Shown piece by piece: positions 33,836-60,726 of a stretch of 64,000 bases of DNA. The position numbers were made by a program, and so were the translations under genes. The DNA is from Rhodopseudomonas sp. AAP120 (GTDB lineage Bacteria; Pseudomonadota; Alphaproteobacteria; Rhizobiales; Xanthobacteraceae). The stretch is from contig NZ_LJIC01000061.1 of the NCBI RefSeq assembly GCF_001295845.1, positions 1-64,000 of the forward strand, written 5' to 3'. The notes under the pieces were generated by a model that did not search any database, had not been told where the DNA came from, and saw only the letters and a program-made list of their open reading frames with translations. Position 1 is the first letter of the stretch. Every line of letters begins with the position of its first letter.

Positions 33836-33925
33836 GGAGAGGTGGCAGAGTGGTTGATTGTACCGCACTCGAAATGCGGCATAGGTGCAAGCCTATCGGG
33901 GGTTCGAATCCCCCCCTCTCCGCCA
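33836..33925 (+). tRNA. tRNA-Ser (CGA)
   Basis: Acceptor arms GGAGAGG (33836-33842) and CCTCTCC (33915-33921), discriminator G and encoded CCA. The anticodon stem CCGCA/TGCGG holds the loop CTCGAAA, so the anticodon is CGA and the codon is UCG. The long variable arm typical of class II tRNAs (ATAGG..CCTAT) is present. The prophage begins at or just after its 3' end, making it the candidate integration target. Confidence 0.97.
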
Positions 33926-51168: not shown

Positions 51169-51668
51169 TGGCCGCCCCCGAGCTGCCGGGCCACGAAGGC
51201 GGTGGCGAGCTTGTCGATCTTCTCGGCGTCCTCGGCCGACACGCCGACAACCGGCCGCGCCGGGATGGTGACGGTCTTCTTGCTGACGTGACGGCCGCCG
51301 ACCACGAAGGACAGGAGCGGCGCGTTCTTGGCGCTGATCACCGCGCCATCCTGATGGACGTGCGCGTACTCCCACGACAGGCCGGCTTCGGTTTCAGTGG
51401 CCGATGCCGTCCAGGCGACCGAACCGAGCATGTGCTGGCCGGTCCGCATCAGGATCGACGTGCCTTCGAGATTGGCCGGCCAGGCCGAACCGTCCGGAGC
51501 CGTCTTGGTCGTGGTGATGCGCTCACGCATCGAGAATTCGAACCGCGCGCCGATGTCTGACATCAGCGGCTCGGTGTTGACGTTGTCGAGCCCGCCCAGC
51601 CGCGCGAGCGCCGAGGTCAGGTCCGAAATATCGACTTCGATGCGAACGCCGGTGTCCATCATCACCAC
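51165..51668 (-). CDS. Virion morphogenesis protein (Mu gpG-like)
   Basis: 167 residues. RIEVDISDLTSALARLGGLD at the start, then FEFSMRERITTTKTAPDGSA, LMRTGQHMLGSVAWTASATE, and the C-terminal RPVVGVSAEDAEKIDKLATA. This is the family of Mu gpG / P2 gpS tail completion proteins. The start could also be one of two further ATGs a few codons on. Confidence 0.87.
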   Translation of the reverse strand: MVMMDTGVRIEVDISDLTSALARLGGLDNVNTEPLMSDIGARFEFSMRERITTTKTAPDGSAWPANLEGTSILMRTGQHMLGSVAWTASATETEAGLSWEYAHVHQDGAVISAKNAPLLSFVVGGRHVSKKTVTIPARPVVGVSAEDAEKIDKLATAFVARQLGGGQ

Positions 51669-52132
51669 CCGCGCAGGCGATCGCGCGTCAGCACGCGCTC
51701 GGCCGAGATCACGATGGCTTCATTCGGCGACACGGTACCGGGCGGCTGCAGGCCGCCGCCGCTGCCGCCACCGCCGGGCCCGTCGAAGGTCAGCGCGGCG
51801 TTGCCTTTCGCGATGGCTTGCAGCCGTGCGATCGCGACGTCGTAGCGCTCCTTCACTCGTTCGTTCGAGCGGCCGAACGACAGCGCCACGCGGTACAGCG
51901 CGATGTCGGTGGTGTAGATGCGCAGGATGCCGCGGCTGTCGTCGTCGATCCGCTCCAGCTCGTCGCGGGTGTAGCGCGCCGCCAGGATCGCCCGAACCTC
52001 GGCCGTGCCGTCGACCAGCGCCGCCTCAATCCGGCTGTCGTCGCGCACGCGCGTCGTCTCGTCCGCCGCCAGCACAGTGGCCTCGGACGGATAGCGCGCC
52101 AGAACGTCGGCAAGGGTGGCGAAAGCGATCAC
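51662..52132 (-). CDS. Mu gp36-like head-tail protein (DUF1320)
   Basis: 156 residues. DVLARYPSEATVLAADETTR and IEAALVDGTAEVRAILAARY match gp36/DUF1320 head-tail connector proteins. A Gly-rich linker (GPGGGGSGGG, near 120) precedes the C-terminus. Start overlaps the previous gene by four bases. Confidence 0.83.
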   Translation of the reverse strand: MIAFATLADVLARYPSEATVLAADETTRVRDDSRIEAALVDGTAEVRAILAARYTRDELERIDDDSRGILRIYTTDIALYRVALSFGRSNERVKERYDVAIARLQAIAKGNAALTFDGPGGGGSGGGLQPPGTVSPNEAIVISAERVLTRDRLRGW

Positions 52133-52875: not shown

Positions 52876-53838
52876 CTAAGCGACAGCGTTTTCGATGAAG
52901 TAGCCGGCGTCCTTGGCGACGATCAGCTCCTTGACCTTTTCGCCGACGCGCAGACGCTCGCCGCCTTCCAGGCCGATGTCGCCATCCTGCATCGTGCCGG
53001 CGATGCGGGTGCCACACTCGGCCGTGAAGCCGAAGGTGACGCCGCGCTGGTTGGTGGCGGCCGGGTCGATGTAGAGCGCCGCGATGTGCTTACCCCAGAC
53101 GCGGCCGAGCGAAACGTCCTGGCCCTTATGGGCGGTGTTGACGAAGCTTTCGCCGACCAGCACCTGCTTGATCTCCAGCAGGGCCGCCAGCTCCTCGCGG
53201 GTGATGACGCCCTTGTTGGTGAGATTGCCGCGGACGGCGTTGACCAGGTGCGGATGGCTGCGCAGCTTGCTCCACACCGATTGGCCCATCACCAGCGTGT
53301 TGGCCCTGAACACCAGCGTGCCCTCGATCGCGGCGAGCAGCACGTCGATCGGCGTCGAATTGGTGTAGTCGGAGAGCTGCGAGTTGCCGGACAGCGTGAC
53401 CTTCCGGCCGACCGCATAGTTGGCCGCGTTGTGGATCAGGCCGGCCACGCGAACTTCGCGGGCGAGCTGCACCAGGTTGGTGACGCCCTCGGTCGCCCGG
53501 GCCCGCGGATCGTAGTTCGACAGGCCGGCGGCGCGCTGACGCTCGGCTTCCTTGATGTCCGAGGTCGGGATCACGTCGTCGAGGCCGTAATCGTCGGTCG
53601 ACGAGTCCTTCTCGGTCGCCGTGAATTCGACCCGGTTCGGCGACGACATGCGGCCGACCTTCGTGTCCGGGACCGAGAAACCCTCGGCCAGCGGATATTC
53701 CAGCCACTTGAACTTCTCGGCGCCGACCGGCACGCGCGGCAGGACGCGATCGGCGATCAGGGTGACCGCCGGATTGCTGTAGCCGATCGCGATCGCGGTT
53801 AGCACGGGGTTGGTGACAAACGGGCGGTTCGGAGCCAT
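52876..53838 (-). CDS. Major capsid protein
   Basis: 320 residues from the ATG at 53838 (AAGGTG upstream). NPVLTAIAIGYSNPAVTLIA, then RMSSPNRVEFTATEKDSSTD, DYGLDDVIPTSDIKEAERQR and the C-terminal IGLEGGERLRVGEKVKELIV. Order after protease and DUF2190 identifies it as the capsid. The exact capsid family (Mu gpT or capsid E type) I cannot settle. The initiator-type tRNA lies 50 bases upstream on the same strand. Confidence 0.86.
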   Translation of the reverse strand: MAPNRPFVTNPVLTAIAIGYSNPAVTLIADRVLPRVPVGAEKFKWLEYPLAEGFSVPDTKVGRMSSPNRVEFTATEKDSSTDDYGLDDVIPTSDIKEAERQRAAGLSNYDPRARATEGVTNLVQLAREVRVAGLIHNAANYAVGRKVTLSGNSQLSDYTNSTPIDVLLAAIEGTLVFRANTLVMGQSVWSKLRSHPHLVNAVRGNLTNKGVITREELAALLEIKQVLVGESFVNTAHKGQDVSLGRVWGKHIAALYIDPAATNQRGVTFGFTAECGTRIAGTMQDGDIGLEGGERLRVGEKVKELIVAKDAGYFIENAVA

Positions 53839-53864
53839 CGGGCACACCTTGGGTTTGAGGGCTT

Positions 53865-53882
53865 CGCCCGCGGCTGCGGGCG
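53865..53882 (-). promoter_or_regulatory. Hairpin between the tRNA and the capsid start
   Basis: CGCCCG (53877-53882 on the minus strand) pairs with CGGGCG (53865-53870) around a six-base loop. It begins five bases after the tRNA CCA and ends 27 bases before the capsid ATG. It would sit at the 5' end of the capsid mRNA if the tRNA is cut out. Confidence 0.6.
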
Positions 53883-53887
53883 GGATC

Positions 53888-53964
53888 TGGTTGCGGGGCG
53901 CGGATTTGAACCGCGGACCTCCTGGTTATGAGCCAGGCGAGCTACCGGGCTGCTCTACCCCGCG
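53888..53964 (-). tRNA. Phage-borne initiator-type tRNA-fMet (CAU) with encoded CCA
   Basis: A 77-base tRNA folds perfectly. The acceptor stem has the initiator-specific C1:A72 mismatch (CGCGGGG with CCCCGCA). The D stem GAGC/GCTC has A11:U24, also an initiator feature. The anticodon loop is CTCATAA (CAU), the T stem CGCGG/CCGCG, discriminator A, and CCA is encoded. The anticodon stem is CCTGG/CCAGG: only two of the three initiator G:C pairs are kept, with T29:A41 in the first place. It lies 8 bases after the DUF2190 stop and 49 before the capsid ATG on the late transcript. Confidence 0.93.
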
Positions 53965-53972
53965 ATAGGCGA

Positions 53973-54356
53973 CTAGCTGGACGCCGGGATGTAGAGCGCG
54001 CCGGCCGACACGATGATCGGCACGATGTCGCCCTCGACGCCCGAGGTCTGGACCTGGCCGATGGTGCGCACCGTCTTGGCCGCAACCGCCGGCGCCGGCA
54101 GCGCGACGGCGCGCCCCTGATCGTCGGAGGTCACCTGCGCGCCGCGATCGACGTTGCCGCCGAGCACGACCTCGGCGGGGCCGGACTGCACGACATCGAC
54201 CACGCCGTCCTTCGGCGCACCGGGCAAGGTCGACACGCCGATTAGAGCGGCGGTGTTGGAGGCGCCTTCGATCGCGGCTTGCTTGCTCGCGTGGAAGGCG
54301 ACGATGCGATTGCCGCGGATCGCGGCGTCGGCGGTGTGTGCTTTGATGCACGGCAT
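53973..54356 (-). CDS. Capsid decoration-type protein (DUF2190)
   Basis: 127 residues from the ATG at 54356. CIKAHTADAAIRGNRIVAFH and VDVVQSGPAEVVLGGNVDRG are typical of DUF2190, small proteins that decorate or cement Mu-like capsids. The start overlaps the protease stop. The tRNA follows eight bases downstream. Confidence 0.83.
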   Translation of the reverse strand: MPCIKAHTADAAIRGNRIVAFHASKQAAIEGASNTAALIGVSTLPGAPKDGVVDVVQSGPAEVVLGGNVDRGAQVTSDDQGRAVALPAPAVAAKTVRTIGQVQTSGVEGDIVPIIVSAGALYIPASS

Positions 54357-55477
54357 CAGTCGATGCTCCCCTTGTTGGCCTGCACGACGGCGTCGGCGAG
54401 CGACAGCTCGCGGCCGGCTTTTTTCGCGTCGCCGATCAGCGCATGCGCCTTGGCGAGCAGATCTTCGGACTTCGGCTTGTCGCCGGCCTCGATCTGGCGC
54501 TCGTCGAGGTTCGACGCCTGCAGCGACACCGGCGTCGCGGCCAGCAGTGCGGTGACATCGGCCAGTCCTTCGGCGGTAGCGCACAGCGCGGCGTACTTCT
54601 CGCGCTGCGCTGGGACGATCTTCTTGTCCTTCAACGCACCTTCGAGAAGCGCCGTTACCTTGGCGTCGTGATCGGTCTTGTCGCGCGCGGCGAGCTGCGC
54701 GGTCAGAGTCGTGACTTGCGCGGTCGCGGCATTGAGATTGGCGAGCGCCTGGTCGTGCACCAACTTGTCGACCTTCGCCGTCGAGAGGCCGGTGATCGCC
54801 GACAGACAGGCCTGGCCGTCCGCACTCTCAGCGAGACCGAGCGCCTTGGCGATCGGCCGCAGCGGGTCATTCGACAGCTTGCTGATCGCCGCGAGGCACG
54901 CAGCCTCGTCGGCGCCTTCCGCGAGGCCCAAAGCCAGCGCGATCGCCTTCAACATGGATTGCTCCTTGGGGGTGAGAGAGGCGGACGCGATCGCCGCCAT
55001 CGGGAGAGCCGGAGCCGCGACCAGCGCGACCGAATGCAGCCACAGCGCCAAGCCATCCTTCGTGTGCGGAAATGTCGGCGACACGAAGCGATGGGTGCGG
55101 GCCTTCAGCGCCGCAGCGCCAGCGGCGAGCATCTCGACCATCGCGAACGTGCCTTCAGGCCGCGCTTCGAGCTTTTTGATCCAACCAACCGCATCGGCCT
55201 TCTCGCCGAGTTTGGCCTTGGTCGGGATGCCGTGGTCGAAGTCGAACGGAATGTCGATGCCGTCCGCCTGGAAGCGGGCAACCAGACGCTCGGGCTCGAA
55301 GATGAAATGGCGGCCGTCGCGACAATCAACCGGGCCGCGCGGTGTCACCTGGATCCAACGCTCGGCGCCGTCGCCATCGGCCGCGAGTGCCGAGACGTCG
55401 ATCGTCACCACGCCGAACGCCACATCGGGCGCTGCGTCGAGCATGGCGATCAGGGGGCTTGCGGAGGGCTGCGTCAT
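54356..55477 (-). CDS. Head maturation protease with scaffold (Mu I-like)
   Basis: 373 residues. The N-terminal 150 residues form the protease: FVSPTFPHTKDGLALWLHSV with the likely catalytic Ser/His region, and DGIDIPFDFDHGIPTKAKLG. The C-terminal part is a helical scaffold with an internal repeat (ALGLAEGADEAACLAAISKL and ALGLAESADGQACLSAITGL near 180 and 210). Two inverted repeats lie directly upstream (55479-55500 and 55510-55532); no good purine ribosome site precedes the ATG. Confidence 0.87.
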   Translation of the reverse strand: MTQPSASPLIAMLDAAPDVAFGVVTIDVSALAADGDGAERWIQVTPRGPVDCRDGRHFIFEPERLVARFQADGIDIPFDFDHGIPTKAKLGEKADAVGWIKKLEARPEGTFAMVEMLAAGAAALKARTHRFVSPTFPHTKDGLALWLHSVALVAAPALPMAAIASASLTPKEQSMLKAIALALGLAEGADEAACLAAISKLSNDPLRPIAKALGLAESADGQACLSAITGLSTAKVDKLVHDQALANLNAATAQVTTLTAQLAARDKTDHDAKVTALLEGALKDKKIVPAQREKYAALCATAEGLADVTALLAATPVSLQASNLDERQIEAGDKPKSEDLLAKAHALIGDAKKAGRELSLADAVVQANKGSID

Positions 55478-55986: not shown

Positions 55987-57228
55987 TCACTCCCTTTCCG
56001 ATTTCAATCTCGCTTCGCGCCGCCTGATTTCGGCCTGGCGCCGCGCCGTCGCGGCGAACAGGGTGCGGACCTGTGCGTAGCCCGCGGTCGATCTGCGGAT
56101 CGCAAGCACCCAATGCACGCCTCCGATCACCGCGAGCACGTGGCGGATCATCGGGTTGCCGCCGTCGAGCCATTCGCCCGTGTCGAGGATCGACTGCACC
56201 AGACCGAAGCTGGCGACGTCGACAGCAGCGTGCTTGCCGGCTTTCTTCGTGATCACGTCGTTCGCGACGGCCACGATCTCGGTCCGTGCCCCCAGCTCCT
56301 CGGCCGCGCGCGCCGAGGCCGCGACCGGCAGATGCACGCGCTCCTCCATCTTCTGCATCGCCTTCGGCCAATCGCCGCGCCAAAGCTTGCCGATCGTTTC
56401 CTGCGCGCGATCGGCGCCGGCCTCGGCCAGCGTGTCGGAGAGCTGCGTCACCAGCGTGCGGGCCCGGGACAGGCCGGGATTGGTCTGCCAGCCGGGGTCG
56501 ATGCCGCGCGGAACGCGCGTGACCTCGCCGGTGCGCCGGTTGACGTAGTCGGCCGCGCCATAGTCCGGCGCGTCTTCCGAGTAGCCTTCCTGCGCGAGGT
56601 AGCGGTCGCGGTCCTCGCCGTCGAGCTGCTGCACGCTGCATTTGCAGCCCCAGCCGTTGGGCGGGTAGTGCGTCCCCCACCAGGCGTCGTCGACCGGCTT
56701 GATGGTGCCGGCCCAGCCGAGATGCTCAGGCCGCTTTCGTTCCGCGGTCGAACGCACATACAGCAAATACGGCCGCGACGCCTTGGTGCGCTGGATGCGA
56801 TTCCACTGGCCGGCGGCGCGCGCGGTGCGGACGTTGCTCCAGAACGTCGTCTCCAGTCGGCCCGGCTTGGTGAAATCGACGGTCTTGTCTCTCCACTTGC
56901 CGGTCGGGTCCGACACCGTCTTCGGACCCCACCATCCATGCGGCGTCAAACGCGCCTGCATGTCGGCCTTGAAGGCCTCGAAGCCCTGGCCGTTCGCGAT
57001 CGCCTTGTCGATCGCCGCCTTGAACTCCGAGAGCACCCGCGTCTCGGTGACGCCGGCGACCGTGAAGCCGTGCGCATGCTCCTGGCCCCACACGTCGAGC
57101 CACGAGAACGCGGGCTTCAGGTTCTTGTCGCGGAAGTAGTCGAGGATCTCCGGCGGCGTCTGAAAGCCGCGCTTGGCGGCGGCGAGCCGCGCCAGCAGCT
57201 CCACGGCCTGGAGGCGCGTGAGCCGCAT
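55987..57228 (-). CDS. Head morphogenesis protein (Mu gp30 / SPP1 gp7-like)
   Basis: 413 residues. RAAGQWNRIQRTKASRPYLL, GTIKPVDDAWWGTHYPPNGW and GCKCSVQQLD are the gp7/gp30 minor head motif (F-like), with WGTHYPPNGWGCKC as the core near residues 180-195. The C-terminal 200 residues are variable. Mu gp30 enters the head with the DNA or bridges to the portal. It follows the portal gene by two bases. Confidence 0.88.
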   Translation of the reverse strand: MRLTRLQAVELLARLAAAKRGFQTPPEILDYFRDKNLKPAFSWLDVWGQEHAHGFTVAGVTETRVLSEFKAAIDKAIANGQGFEAFKADMQARLTPHGWWGPKTVSDPTGKWRDKTVDFTKPGRLETTFWSNVRTARAAGQWNRIQRTKASRPYLLYVRSTAERKRPEHLGWAGTIKPVDDAWWGTHYPPNGWGCKCSVQQLDGEDRDRYLAQEGYSEDAPDYGAADYVNRRTGEVTRVPRGIDPGWQTNPGLSRARTLVTQLSDTLAEAGADRAQETIGKLWRGDWPKAMQKMEERVHLPVAASARAAEELGARTEIVAVANDVITKKAGKHAAVDVASFGLVQSILDTGEWLDGGNPMIRHVLAVIGGVHWVLAIRRSTAGYAQVRTLFAATARRQAEIRRREARLKSERE

Positions 57229-57230
57229 CG

Positions 57231-58829
57231 TCAGTCCACCGCGTCGCCGAGGCCGCGCGCCTTGGCGGTGAGCCGCGCCAGCGCCTCGGCGAGCTTACTG
57301 CCGTCGACCTTGGCGGCGAGCTGCGGCAGCATCTCCTCGAGCTCCGCGAAACTGGACGCGCGGGCGACCGCCTCGCGCAGCGGCGCCAGCATCGGGTCGA
57401 CTAGGACTTCCCAATCGCCCATAGCATCCGCCACCAGCGCGTCGAGTTCGTCCTGATCGGCCGCGGCGATCGCGCCGGCGTCCGCCGCCAGCGTGGCGGT
57501 GCCGCCGCAGGCCGGGCAGCGGCAACCGGCCGACAGCTTCGCGGCCTTCTTCGGATCATCGTTGGCGGCGACGATATCCTGTTGCCCGGCGCTATCGCGC
57601 CGCGGCGTCAGCACCTCGTCTGTCTCGCCCGGCTCGGACAGGCCGAACTTGCTGCGGATCTCCGCCTGCGAGACGCGCAAACCGAACGGCACGAGCTTGG
57701 CGACGCCGTCCGACAGCGCCTTGGTGTCCTCGGGCTCAGCGACCGGATATTCCGCGCTCGGATAGACCTCCTGCGGCCCGAAGTTCATCGCCACCGCCCA
57801 GACGATGTGGTCGCGGTTGACGGTGTTCGCGAGTTGCCGGCCGTCCGCGCGCTGGATGTCGAGGCGCACTTCGTTGTGCACCTTGGCTTGCGCCATCGAC
57901 GCGCCGTTGTCGGACGTCATGGTCTGGCCGACGACCAGCTTCGACACCTGCTTGTCGAGATAGTCGAGGAGCTGGCCGAACACGGCTTCGCCGCGCTGGC
58001 CCTTGGTCTCGATGAAATCCAGCCCCATTCCCTGCGGGATGATCGCCGCGGCGTCGGACGCGATCGAGCGCACCGCCTGCAGCAGCGCCTTCTTGTCGGC
58101 CTCGGATGCGCCGGCGTGATAGCGGCCGATCCGCAGCGGGATGCCGTAGATCTCTGCGAAGGCCGACCAGTCCTTCAGGGCGAACGACTGCAACAGGAAC
58201 GCCCAGGCGGCGGCCCGCGCGAAGCCGCGGCGGATCGGAATGCCCGCCTTGCTCCGCGGCGCGTGCACGATGAAGGTCGGCTTGGCTAGCGGCTCACCTT
58301 CCATGCTGCCGTCGACCGCGAGCCGCAGTTCCGTTTGCGAGACCGGATCGAACTGGAAAAACCGCTGGTCGCGCCACTTGTAGGCGACCGGCCGCAGCGC
58401 ACCGCGCTCGTACTCCCAAAGCGGCTCGATCACCGCATAGCCCTTGGCGATGCCGTCCGTGAGCAGGCCGGTGGCGTCATGAAAGCCGGGATCGTTCACC
58501 AGTTCGTGGACGAAATCGACGATCTTGGTCGGCACCCCCTTCGGCGCCTTGACGCTGGGGGCCACGCCCTCGATCGCCAGCCGCCGCGTCTGCACCTGGC
58601 TGGCGTAATGGAGGTAGCGCTCCTCCATCTCCTCGGCGAGCGTCAGATAGTCCCGCGCCGAGCCGATCGTCGCCTGATGCAGCACATAGGCCAGCCGCTC
58701 CGGCGTCAGCCCGGAGGCGACCCGCTCGTGATGCACCGCGCGGACGCCGATCGTGGTCGGCGTCGCGACTTCCTTCGACAGCAGCGAGGCGTCGATCGGC
58801 TGCCCGTCAGGCCCGAGAAGCTTCACCAC
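57231..58829 (-). CDS. Portal protein (DUF935, Mu gp29-like)
   Basis: 532 residues. GVRAVHHERVASGLTPERLA, RDYLTLAEEMEERYLHYASQ, then YKWRDQRFFQFDP and the C-terminal SAGCRCPACGG cysteine pair. These fit DUF935, the Mu-type portal. It forms the DNA channel at one capsid vertex. The start overlaps the terminase stop. Confidence 0.92.
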   Translation of the reverse strand: MVKLLGPDGQPIDASLLSKEVATPTTIGVRAVHHERVASGLTPERLAYVLHQATIGSARDYLTLAEEMEERYLHYASQVQTRRLAIEGVAPSVKAPKGVPTKIVDFVHELVNDPGFHDATGLLTDGIAKGYAVIEPLWEYERGALRPVAYKWRDQRFFQFDPVSQTELRLAVDGSMEGEPLAKPTFIVHAPRSKAGIPIRRGFARAAAWAFLLQSFALKDWSAFAEIYGIPLRIGRYHAGASEADKKALLQAVRSIASDAAAIIPQGMGLDFIETKGQRGEAVFGQLLDYLDKQVSKLVVGQTMTSDNGASMAQAKVHNEVRLDIQRADGRQLANTVNRDHIVWAVAMNFGPQEVYPSAEYPVAEPEDTKALSDGVAKLVPFGLRVSQAEIRSKFGLSEPGETDEVLTPRRDSAGQQDIVAANDDPKKAAKLSAGCRCPACGGTATLAADAGAIAAADQDELDALVADAMGDWEVLVDPMLAPLREAVARASSFAELEEMLPQLAAKVDGSKLAEALARLTAKARGLGDAVD

Positions 58830-60148
58830 AGCGCACGCCCTCCGGAGGTTTCGAACAGATTGGAGCCGGCCTCAGTCCGCGCCGACTGATAGCCGTCATA
58901 GGCCGGCACGCCGTCGCCGGCGGCGTGGATGCCGAGGAACGCCGCCCAGGTGCGGTCGGCGTGATCATCGTCGCGTTCGGCAACGAAGCGAGGCGCGCCG
59001 GTGGCGGACGCCACCTTGCGCAGCTTGTGCAGATCCGAGCGCAGCGCCACGTCGCCCTCGCGGATGCGGACCTTGCGGTCCTCGAACGCTTCCTTGCCGG
59101 CGGTCGCGAGGATCAGCTTGTTCGGGATGGTGAACAGCACGCCCTCGACCACGCTTCCCCATTTGGCCTGCGCATCCTCGACCACCTTTTCGCCCATGCC
59201 GGTCTGGTCGATGCAGGCGCGCGCGACACGGTAGCGCGTCATCACGTCGTCGAAGGCCGCATCCATGGCGGCAAAGGTGGCGCGTTTCTGCTCGATCCGC
59301 TCGCGCTCCCACAACACGTCGCCGATCAGCTCCCACACCCAGATCACATGCAGGTCGTTGCGCCGGCCGATGTCGCGGCCGACGAAGCACGGATTGTTGC
59401 GATAGCCGGACGGGTCGCCCGCGCGTGGATCCTCGCAAGCGGTGATCAGATCATAGGACAGCCAGGCGCTCGCTTCGTCGAGCCACTTCAGCTCGTACTC
59501 CTGGGCCCAAGCGTCGTCGTCGTTGATGCCGGCCTTCAGCTCGTCGACGCTGCGCGGCAGGCCTTCAGCGACCGCCTTGTAGATGTCGACGAAATGTCGC
59601 GACCAGACGTCGTCCTTTCCGGTCGCCAGCTCGTAGAACTTATTGTCCTTGCCGTTGCCAGTGGAGGTCACGCGCAGATTGTGGCCGGCCGAGATCACCG
59701 GAAACAGCGCCTTCCAGATCTCGCGCGAGTCCTTGTGGAAGGCGAACTCGTCCAGGAACACGTTCGACGAAAAGCCGCGGGCGGTGTCCGGGTTCGCTGG
59801 CAGCGCGGTGATGCGGCTGCCGTGCGGCAGCGTCACCTCCAGCGCCTTGTAGGAGCCGGCCTGGCCCTGCCAGTCGAACTCCTGTGCGTCGAAACCCAGC
59901 TGATAAGCCTGGCAGTGGCGCTTGATGCCTTCGTCCATCGCTTCCTTGGCCTGACGCTCGCCGCGCGACAGGATCACCCAGCGCTTGCGTTGGCTCTGCA
60001 CGGCCGCCCCGAAGCAATCGTCGGTGATCTCCAACGTCGTGGTGAACGTCTTGCCGGTCTGGCGGGCGAACATGCCGAGCTTGAAGCGCGACCGATCGAG
60101 GAACCAGGTACGCTGAAAGCCGTAGAGCGGGACGGCAGCGGCGCTCAT
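58823..60148 (-). CDS. Terminase large subunit (Mu gp28-like)
   Basis: 441 residues. ATPase motifs: FARQTGKTFT (Walker A, near 27-36), VFLDEFAF (Walker B, near 131-138), and SAGHNLRVTSTGNGKDNKFY coupling motif. The nuclease half carries DIGRRNDLHVIWVWE and CIDQTGMGEKVVEDAQAKWG. It packages DNA into proheads. It overlaps the gp27-like gene by four bases. Confidence 0.92.
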   Translation of the reverse strand: MSAAAVPLYGFQRTWFLDRSRFKLGMFARQTGKTFTTTLEITDDCFGAAVQSQRKRWVILSRGERQAKEAMDEGIKRHCQAYQLGFDAQEFDWQGQAGSYKALEVTLPHGSRITALPANPDTARGFSSNVFLDEFAFHKDSREIWKALFPVISAGHNLRVTSTGNGKDNKFYELATGKDDVWSRHFVDIYKAVAEGLPRSVDELKAGINDDDAWAQEYELKWLDEASAWLSYDLITACEDPRAGDPSGYRNNPCFVGRDIGRRNDLHVIWVWELIGDVLWERERIEQKRATFAAMDAAFDDVMTRYRVARACIDQTGMGEKVVEDAQAKWGSVVEGVLFTIPNKLILATAGKEAFEDRKVRIREGDVALRSDLHKLRKVASATGAPRFVAERDDDHADRTWAAFLGIHAAGDGVPAYDGYQSARTEAGSNLFETSGGRALW

Positions 60149-60726
60149 GTCGTGATCCCGTAGATGTCCTCGCGGATTTTCTTGAGCAGCGCCGCGCCGT
60201 CGAGCTGGCCGGCGCTGTCGGCCGCGTCGTCGATCGCCTTTGCGGTCTTGGCCAGCGCCTCCGCCTTGGCCTTCTCGGCCGCGCGCTTCTCGATCGCGAC
60301 GGTGCGGGCGACGTCGTCCTTGCTGGCCTTGCCGAGATGGTCGAGCGCCTTGGCGAGCAGCATCGCTTCCATCGGATCGAAGGTGACGGACTCGCCATCG
60401 GCGGCCGTGCGGGTGGCGATCTCGAACAGCACGTTGTGCATCAGTTCGATGTTCATCCGCGTGGTCTTGTCCGGATCGCTTTCACCGAGCCGGCGCACGA
60501 TGACTTCGGCCACCTGGCGCTGCCTGCGGATGCGCTCGGCGACTTCGTCGGCCTTCTTGAGGTGGCGTCCGATTGCGGACCGCGACGGCAACTCCTCCTT
60601 GTCGAGATCCAGCTCGCCGAGTTTGCGCATGATCTCGTCGATCGTGCAGCCGCGGTCACGGAGGCGGCCGATCAGGTCTCGCACTTCCTCGGGCAGACGG
60701 TCGATCGACGACGGCCGGTTCGCCAT
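60145..60726 (-). CDS. Terminase small-subunit-like protein (DUF3486, Mu gp27)
   Basis: 193 residues. SIDRLPEEVRDLIGRLRDRG and CTIDEIMRKLGELDLDKEEL form an HTH-like N-terminus, followed by RSAIGRHLKKADEVAERIRR and a helical C-terminus. This matches DUF3486 next to gp28 terminases. It probably recognises phage DNA. Confidence 0.88.
   Translation of the reverse strand: MANRPSSIDRLPEEVRDLIGRLRDRGCTIDEIMRKLGELDLDKEELPSRSAIGRHLKKADEVAERIRRQRQVAEVIVRRLGESDPDKTTRMNIELMHNVLFEIATRTAADGESVTFDPMEAMLLAKALDHLGKASKDDVARTVAIEKRAAEKAKAEALAKTAKAIDDAADSAGQLDGAALLKKIREDIYGITT

Follow-up and report, generated by a model that had tools for sequence, protein, structure and literature searches.

An initiator tRNA gene kept inside the head operon of a Rhodopseudomonas prophage of B3/Mu-like type

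Introduction

Prophages whose only tRNA gene is a tRNA-fMet have been published before. Among the phiLM21-like prophages of Sinorhizobium, the available text of the study lists 15 with a single tRNA, of which four carry tRNA-fMet and ten tRNA-Met (PMC12429752). Like the phage described here, they are temperate, live in alphaproteobacteria and often have a CAU tRNA as their only one; the tRNA of phiLM21 itself scored 84.7 bits with an initiator model and 57.1 bits with an elongator model. They differ in that their tRNA lies between an HNH gene and the terminase and that the phages integrate into tRNA genes, whereas our gene lies in the head operon of a phage with Mu-type genes. The phiLM21 record places tRNA-Met on the minus strand (L316:4999-5075), but with either tRNA model it comes out on the plus strand, where the neighbouring genes also lie.

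Initiator-like tRNA-Met genes, as in the phage studied here, also occur in mycobacteriophages and Caulobacter Ccr phages, which have large genomes with many tRNAs; by comparison, our phage has a single tRNA near its capsid gene. The Erythrobacter phages R6L and ZS04 share with it an initiator-type tRNA among packaging genes (94.7 versus 65.6 bits in ZS04), placed between the large terminase and the portal region, but they are unrelated to it and use another gap. In both, this tRNA following the large terminase is unannotated (ZS04, L249:4001-4077; R6L, L318), and the available part of the R6L paper reports no tRNA (PMC5463345).

Two further systems bear comparison. In the Escherichia coli metY-nusA-infB operon, according to the accessible text, an initiator tRNA is made from a protein-coding transcript and excised from it (PMC6511841); that operon differs in being cellular, in having the tRNA first and in encoding IF2. 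TRNA-dependent lysogeny, as outlined in the part of the source at hand (PMC10865867), likewise involves a phage tRNA of an essential isotype but needs integration into the cognate host tRNA gene, whereas our phage has Mu-type head genes and a host with an intact gene. We rejected it for this prophage, as the cognate host initiator is intact on contig C135 and the prophage lies on contig C187.

The initial annotation of the locus had called phage initiator tRNAs rare. This was borne out in part: 316 of 50,697 phage records match the gene at E<=1e-6, and prophages with a single tRNA-fMet have been published (PMC12429752, available text). Among the matches listed in a search of the open-licence literature by title and abstract start, we found no paper that dealt with initiator tRNAs carried by head operons. 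Phage-borne tRNA-fMet being already published, what is new is that the gene lies in a capsid operon, that this setting recurs and that it is conserved.

Results

The tRNA gene and its initiator identity

The window, that is, the whole stretch of 64,000 nucleotides of Rhodopseudomonas sp. AAP120 DNA that was analysed, contains a 77-nt tRNA-Met(CAT) gene on the minus strand, the strand of the surrounding head genes. ARAGORN called it with exactly the limits given in Table 1, and positions 53891-53964 match the Rfam tRNA family (62.3 bits, E 4.1e-11). The features from which the initial annotation had recognised a complete tRNA are all present, namely a cloverleaf with encoded CCA, a CAU anticodon, C1:A72 (and hence no strong 1:72 pair), A11:U24 and U29:A41. 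The anticodon loop reads CUCAUAA and the anticodon stem CCUGG/CCAGG, with C27:G43, U29:A41, G30:C40 and G31:C39, so that two of the three G:C pairs at 29-31:39-41 are found and the other features are those of a bacterial initiator. Three G:C pairs and C1:A72 are described as important for initiator function in the available text of PMC11497404.

Two covariance models were built, from 8 initiators of the host order and from 8 elongator-Met genes. The window tRNA scored 101.8 bits with the former and 68.9 with the latter, in agreement with its annotation as an initiator rather than an elongator or a pseudogene. The host initiator (110.1 versus 66.3 bits) and the host elongator (64.7 versus 103 bits), both among the sequences used to build the models, were separated likewise. 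A comparison with the host fMet genes, which the initial annotation had called for, was made among 40 own-genome tRNAs read from 45 hits, the phage gene itself included; the closest relative was the host initiator (68/77 identical), followed by elongator Met (52). The model scores and the distance to host tRNAs rule out elongator Met or Ile2. By these sequence features the gene is a complete initiator tRNA gene, and one under selection (see below). The sole other tRNA within the window is a tRNA-Ser(CGA) at 33836-33925 on the plus strand.

The head operon

The tRNA was correctly placed by the initial annotation inside a prophage head operon (Table 1). With Mu-type genes around it, it lies between a small head gene, whose stop at 53973 ends 8 nt before it, and the capsid gene, which starts 49 nt beyond it at 53838. 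The capsid protein has its best hit in Ochrobactrum phage POA1180 (53.3%) and is 46.4% identical to that of Pseudomonas phage B3; no tRNA is annotated in the 9-kb stretch of POA1180 covered. The Mu-type head genes together with the B3-like capsid identify the element, at the sequence level, as a B3/Mu-like and putatively transposable prophage, in which the tRNA copy sits mid-prophage, away from the ends (contig of 39,869 bp).

Table 1. Positions of the genes and sequence elements discussed, in the window unless a locus or contig is named
Feature	Location	Strand	Basis or characters
Mu gp36-like head-tail adaptor	51662..52132	minus	PF07030
Major capsid gene (B3-like major head protein)	52876..53838	minus	PHROG 1005 major head protein, E 1.6e-97
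AAGGTG, Shine-Dalgarno-like, ahead of capsid ATG	53845..53850	minus	Sequence
7-bp hairpin between tRNA and capsid start, without T-run	53865..53882	minus	Fold, alignment
Initiator tRNA-Met(CAU) gene with encoded CCA	53888..53964	minus	ARAGORN, Rfam, initiator versus elongator covariance models, pair counts
Anticodon CAU	53928..53930	minus	ARAGORN and sequence
Small head gene (PHROG 'head scaffolding protein')	53973..54356	minus	PHROG 673, E 5.5e-18; start chosen by us
Mu-like I protease	54356..55477	minus	PF10123, E 1e-42
Mu F-like minor head protein	55987..57228	minus	PF04233
Mu-type portal	57231..58829	minus	PF06074, E 4.9e-94
Terminase large subunit	58823..60148	minus	PF03237/PF17289
Mu gp27-like terminase small subunit	60145..60726	minus	PF11985; PHROG 426
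tRNAs of L015-L017	L015:2800-2876, L016:2875-2951, L017:2876-2952		G1:A72, A8 for U8, C21 for A21
tRNAs of L036 and L320	L036:2975-3051, L320:4972-5048		A54 in T loop; anticodon loop UUCAUAC (U32, C38)
tRNA of L435	L435:1473-1547	minus	D loop without GG, T loop G55; 77.7 versus 58.2 bits
CAU initiator-like tRNA of L525	L525:3506-3582	minus	G1:A72, C11:G24, three G:C pairs, 93.3 versus 75.8 bits
Host VapC (locus L517), overlapping upstream VapB-like ORF	G000:C195:28102-28497		NCBIfam tRNA(fMet)-specific endonuclease

Between 52800 and 55600 we detected neither a promoter-like site of the sigma-70 type nor a terminator-like site on the minus strand; two terminator-like sites in this interval are both on the plus strand, and their number is no greater than in shuffled sequences. 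Given neither a promoter-like site nor a minus-strand terminator-like site, the tRNA is most simply read within the head transcript, and we infer from the sequence that it is co-transcribed with the head genes. The suggestion, made at first, that the tRNA could help at many GTG starts was not upheld, 8 of the 11 head-region genes starting with ATG and 3 with GTG; these start codons are our own choices, and for the capsid and small head genes we took an inner ATG in preference to the GTG further upstream from which the mechanical ORF list starts them.

Initiator genes of the host and its relatives

The host assembly (6.16 Mb, 228 contigs) contains one initiator gene of its own (C135:71196-71272), 88% identical to the phage gene. 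Thirteen of the 15 other genomes of the genus, including the five single-contig ones, show one match to the host initiator; G580 shows none at the limit used, and G141 has three, namely its own gene, one belonging to a phage and one fragment. The fragment (L526:1297-1379) is the 3' part of a host-type initiator from the anticodon loop to the CCA, lies apart from the intact gene and might be something like an att-site remnant.

A match to the host initiator was found in 38 of 41 related genomes, and 38 full or nearly full sequences, one of them cut at its 5' end, could be read from 37 of the 41. All 38 carry A29:U41, and every one with a 5' end carries C1:A72. Two of three G:C pairs are thus the local norm, the phage merely flips the pair, and the three-G:C feature is not defining for initiators in this order. 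The earlier idea that the lost pair alters P-site entry falls with this result, and we rejected an altered P-site mode, the two-of-three state being common to the 38 host initiators. The phage anticodon stem differs from that of the host at two pairs (C27:G43 and U29:A41 versus U27:A43 and A29:U41), and the whole arm differs from that of all 38 host initiators read. With one mismatch allowed, a search of 397 genomes of the order found the phage arm in 2, once in this phage and once in another Mu-type region (L435).

Conservation of the tRNA

Across eight distinct sequences (seven phage types and the host gene) with 20 stem pairs each, all 160 cells are standard pairs, and two-sided changes occurred at 7 of the 20 pairs. 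None of 500 shuffles reached the pairing percentage, and none the covariation score; 5 of 500 reached the count of pairs with two-sided change and 37 of 500 that of further pair types. Between the window phage and its sister phage L014, the tRNA shows 0/77 changes, against 38 of 173 differing four-fold sites in the capsid gene (22%; binomial P 5e-9); between the window and L017, 3/77 tRNA sites and 50/138 capsid four-fold sites differ. As judged from these comparisons, the tRNA is under purifying selection.

Relatives with and without the tRNA

Ten viral contigs with a related capsid gene were compared, of which five have a tRNA at this position (L014, L015-L017 and L013, the last being the phage of the window itself) and five have none. 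L164, found by pattern, also has a tRNA at this place, so that five related phages (L014-L017 and L164) carry one at the window's position. In a capsid tree of 44 rows, from which L164 was left out as its capsid match is too short, the five upstream-tRNA carriers belong to one starred clade of 8 rows; L026, L028 and L029, which have no tRNA call, lie inside the same clade. In L026 and L028 the gap is occupied by other sequence, and in L029 it is only about 30 nt long. This pattern could reflect one gain with losses, two gains, or exchange. A structured RNA replacing the tRNA in L026 and L028 found no support from folding.

Twelve further loci yielded one CAU tRNA, 3' of the capsid gene (L030), and 23 more yielded two, after the capsid gene (L036 and L038), with no tRNA call in 21 of the 23. 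When 20 capsid genes were viewed with as much as 20 kb of flanking sequence in either direction, no additional tRNA-Met turned up close to the capsid gene, and the remaining tRNA calls were at least 13 kb from it. Three more capsid scans gave 115 loci, 107 without a tRNA call and 8 with one: the tRNA follows the capsid gene in L320 (same contig as L337), L323, L324 and L334 (same tRNA as L030), lies between the F-like and protease genes in L381 and L382 (as in L138), and in L358 is a call without anticodon on the other strand. Of the phages with a Mu gpT capsid, L435 has a tRNA ahead of gp36; among the best 80 of 134 gpT-capsid loci, L437 and L438 share this tRNA (L437 being identical to L435 in capsid and tRNA), and the other calls are a Ser tRNA on the other strand (L485) and a malformed 101-nt Pro tRNA (L497).

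A second gpT phage, L525, comes from G141, a genome of the host's genus, and has a CAU tRNA before gp36 at the place corresponding to that in L435, as well as an unassigned tRNA-like call in the capsid flanks. Within the fetched capsid-gene flanks, the clear tRNAs on the operon strand were all CAU, a bias of isotype that speaks against a role open to any tRNA. The places that CAU tRNAs occupy in Mu-type head operons are several. The loci with no tRNA call (L026, L028, L029, 21 of the 23 and 107 of the 115) show that the gene is dispensable, and it appears from these sequences to be useful but not essential to the phage lineage. In L525, broken tRNA-like pieces are also seen between the Mu I-like protease and small head genes (L525:5826-5970, minus strand); they have repeated D- and T-arm sequence and no normal anticodon arm, the best piece scoring 42 bits with the initiator model.

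Variant tRNAs

The 1:72 pair is C1:A72 in the window and L014, G1:A72 in L015-L017 and U1:A72 in L030, L036 and L038. C11:G24 occurs within the alignment only in L030, and also in L323 and L525. The L015-L017 tRNAs are altered at core positions 8 and 21, which are near-universal in tRNA; A54 of L036 and L320 is reminiscent of eukaryotic and archaeal initiators, and U32 and C38 are found in L036, L038, L320 and L323. Without GG in the D loop and with G55, the L435 tRNA cannot form the usual elbow contacts. L030 is ambiguous (72.6 bits as initiator, 67.6 as elongator) and L324 degenerate (49.8 versus 47.7 bits). These variants (L015-L017, L036, L320, L435, L030 and L324) weaken the view that all relatives work as ordinary initiators, and, to go by their sequences and by the broken pieces in L525, not every relative need be a working one. 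U29:A41 was considered as a phage signature and is a weak one, occurring in 8/32 inner versus 4/38 end-lying distinct sequences among the viral-contig pattern matches.

Discussion

The explanation that we tentatively prefer, giving it a little less than an even chance, is that the phage keeps a functional, host-compatible initiator gene in its head operon which adds to the initiator supply late in infection. The role of phage tRNAs as codon helpers cannot explain the carriage of an initiator. The tRNA would be made as part of the late head transcript and cut out of it by host tRNA-processing enzymes, for which the excision of the metY initiator from its transcript is a precedent in the available text (PMC6511841). 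It could then be charged by MetRS and, lacking a strong 1:72 pair, formylated, after which IF2 would bring it into use in the P site. With replicated phage genomes outnumbering the host's single own initiator gene, the initiator pool would grow as capsid synthesis peaks, and late initiation would gain; the phage would thereby probably not depend on the host's single copy late in infection.

The strongest rival, which we consider rather unlikely, is counter-defence, in which a tRNA(fMet)-specific VapC destroys initiator tRNA and the phage tRNA makes good the loss, be it by dose or through a less-cut stem. By homology, the host carries a nuclease for this tRNA: its VapC exceeds both NCBIfam cut-offs for tRNA(fMet)-specific VapC (177.6 versus 143 and 165.4 versus 140), matches a solved tRNA(fMet)-specific VapC (E 1.5e-47) and has D7, E42, D98, E119 and an overlapping upstream ORF. 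A VapC from Bosea, an alphaproteobacterium with one initiator gene, is reported in the accessible text to cut tRNA(fMet) upon expression in E. coli, whose growth was partly restored by additional initiator copies (PMC8522696). The near-confinement of the phage anticodon arm to this phage and the other Mu-type region would suit a less-cut stem, but the swapped A:U stem pair is not general, the G141 phage tRNA having G29:C41. Moreover, at the cut site A38-C39 given in the available part of PMC4105405 the loop of the window tRNA is unchanged, being identical to that of the host.

The link between VapC and tRNA carriage is weak. Close VapC orthologues occur in 4 of the 15 other genomes of the genus searched, and of the 5 genus genomes with a close VapC, 2 (G000, which is the host, and G141) have a second initiator-like gene of full length, versus 0 of the 11 without; this pattern, noticed afterwards, is suggestive and involves too few genomes to be firm. 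L525, the phage with the broken tRNA-like pieces, lies in a VapC-carrying genome. Against this, among genomes chosen by their phages, close VapC orthologues were present in 1/5 with the phage tRNA versus 1/25 without it, and at a looser E<=1e-20 in 2/5 versus 4/25. Neither the genus set nor the phage-chosen set showed a clear association between tRNA presence and host VapC. In the available part of an eLife study, it is stated that, where tRNA-fMet is a target of VapC-LT2, phages have as a rule not encoded this tRNA (PMC10264068).

A bolder form of this idea, which we regard as doubtful, is that Mu-type phages keep the capsid-operon initiator as a late back-up against VapC, with swapped stem pairs that lower cleavage while P-site use is kept. 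If true, late capsid synthesis would continue after the host's single initiator pool had been cut, and additional escape or decoy forms would be seen in the altered loops (U32, C38), in the elbows changed by A8/C21 or by a D loop without GG, and in the broken copies.

It is also improbable, in our estimation, that the tRNA serves as RNA punctuation, its fold cutting the head transcript so that the capsid mRNA is left protected by a hairpin at its 5' end, and initiator identity being incidental. The short distance to the capsid start, followed by a hairpin whose core CCCGC/GCGGG is kept in five aligned phages (the window phage and L014-L017), would fit such a role, as would the other sequence filling the same gap in L026 and L028 and the L525 pieces without a normal anticodon arm; excision of metY, there by RNase III in the text available, again provides a precedent (PMC6511841). 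However, any tRNA could punctuate, yet the clear ones are CAU; the tRNA lies 3' of the capsid gene in L030, L036, L038, L320 and L323 and before the protease gene in L138; the L029 gap is short; and folding of the 135-nt leader gave an ordinary stability (z -0.8, with 0.35 for L026 and -0.4 for L028). Isotype and changing positions are left unexplained by punctuation.

That the gene is a captured passenger without function, or an attachment-site relic, is very unlikely: it would agree with the patchy presence within the capsid clade, with the broken pieces in L525 and with the 84 pattern matches, among the 120 listed, lying less than 700 nt from an end of the stretch retrieved, a position possible for att-site copies, but it is opposed by purifying selection on the window tRNA, by its anticodon arm unlike that of any host initiator read and by its place in mid-prophage, the relic form being rejected for the window copy on the latter ground and by the intact host initiator on C135.

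Late initiator supply thus remains the account that we prefer, and the locus offers a clean case for testing if late translation in phages is limited by the supply of initiator, and if defence against phages is a function of tRNA(fMet)-specific VapC. The case rests on the only tRNA near the capsid genes being an initiator, maintained by selection ahead of the capsid gene, and on a host with one initiator of its own and a toxin of an initiator-cutting type.

The viral-contig pattern scan gave, among the 120 matches listed, 36 at least 700 nt from the stretch ends, of which L138, L160 and L206 were left out as known cases and L180, L199, L233 and L246 as repeats. Among the nearest ORFs of the remaining 29 (58 proteins), three matches adjoin a large terminase (L128, L195 and L230) and two an antiterminator (L210 and L215), most neighbours being without known function; a general placement of phage initiators within head modules was not borne out by these 29 neighbourhoods, which were scanned without a control. 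As IF2 binds initiator tRNA and, in the available text of PMC3334882, also acts in phage Mu transposition, one idea is that the initiator tRNA of Mu-type phages might touch on the transposition role of IF2.
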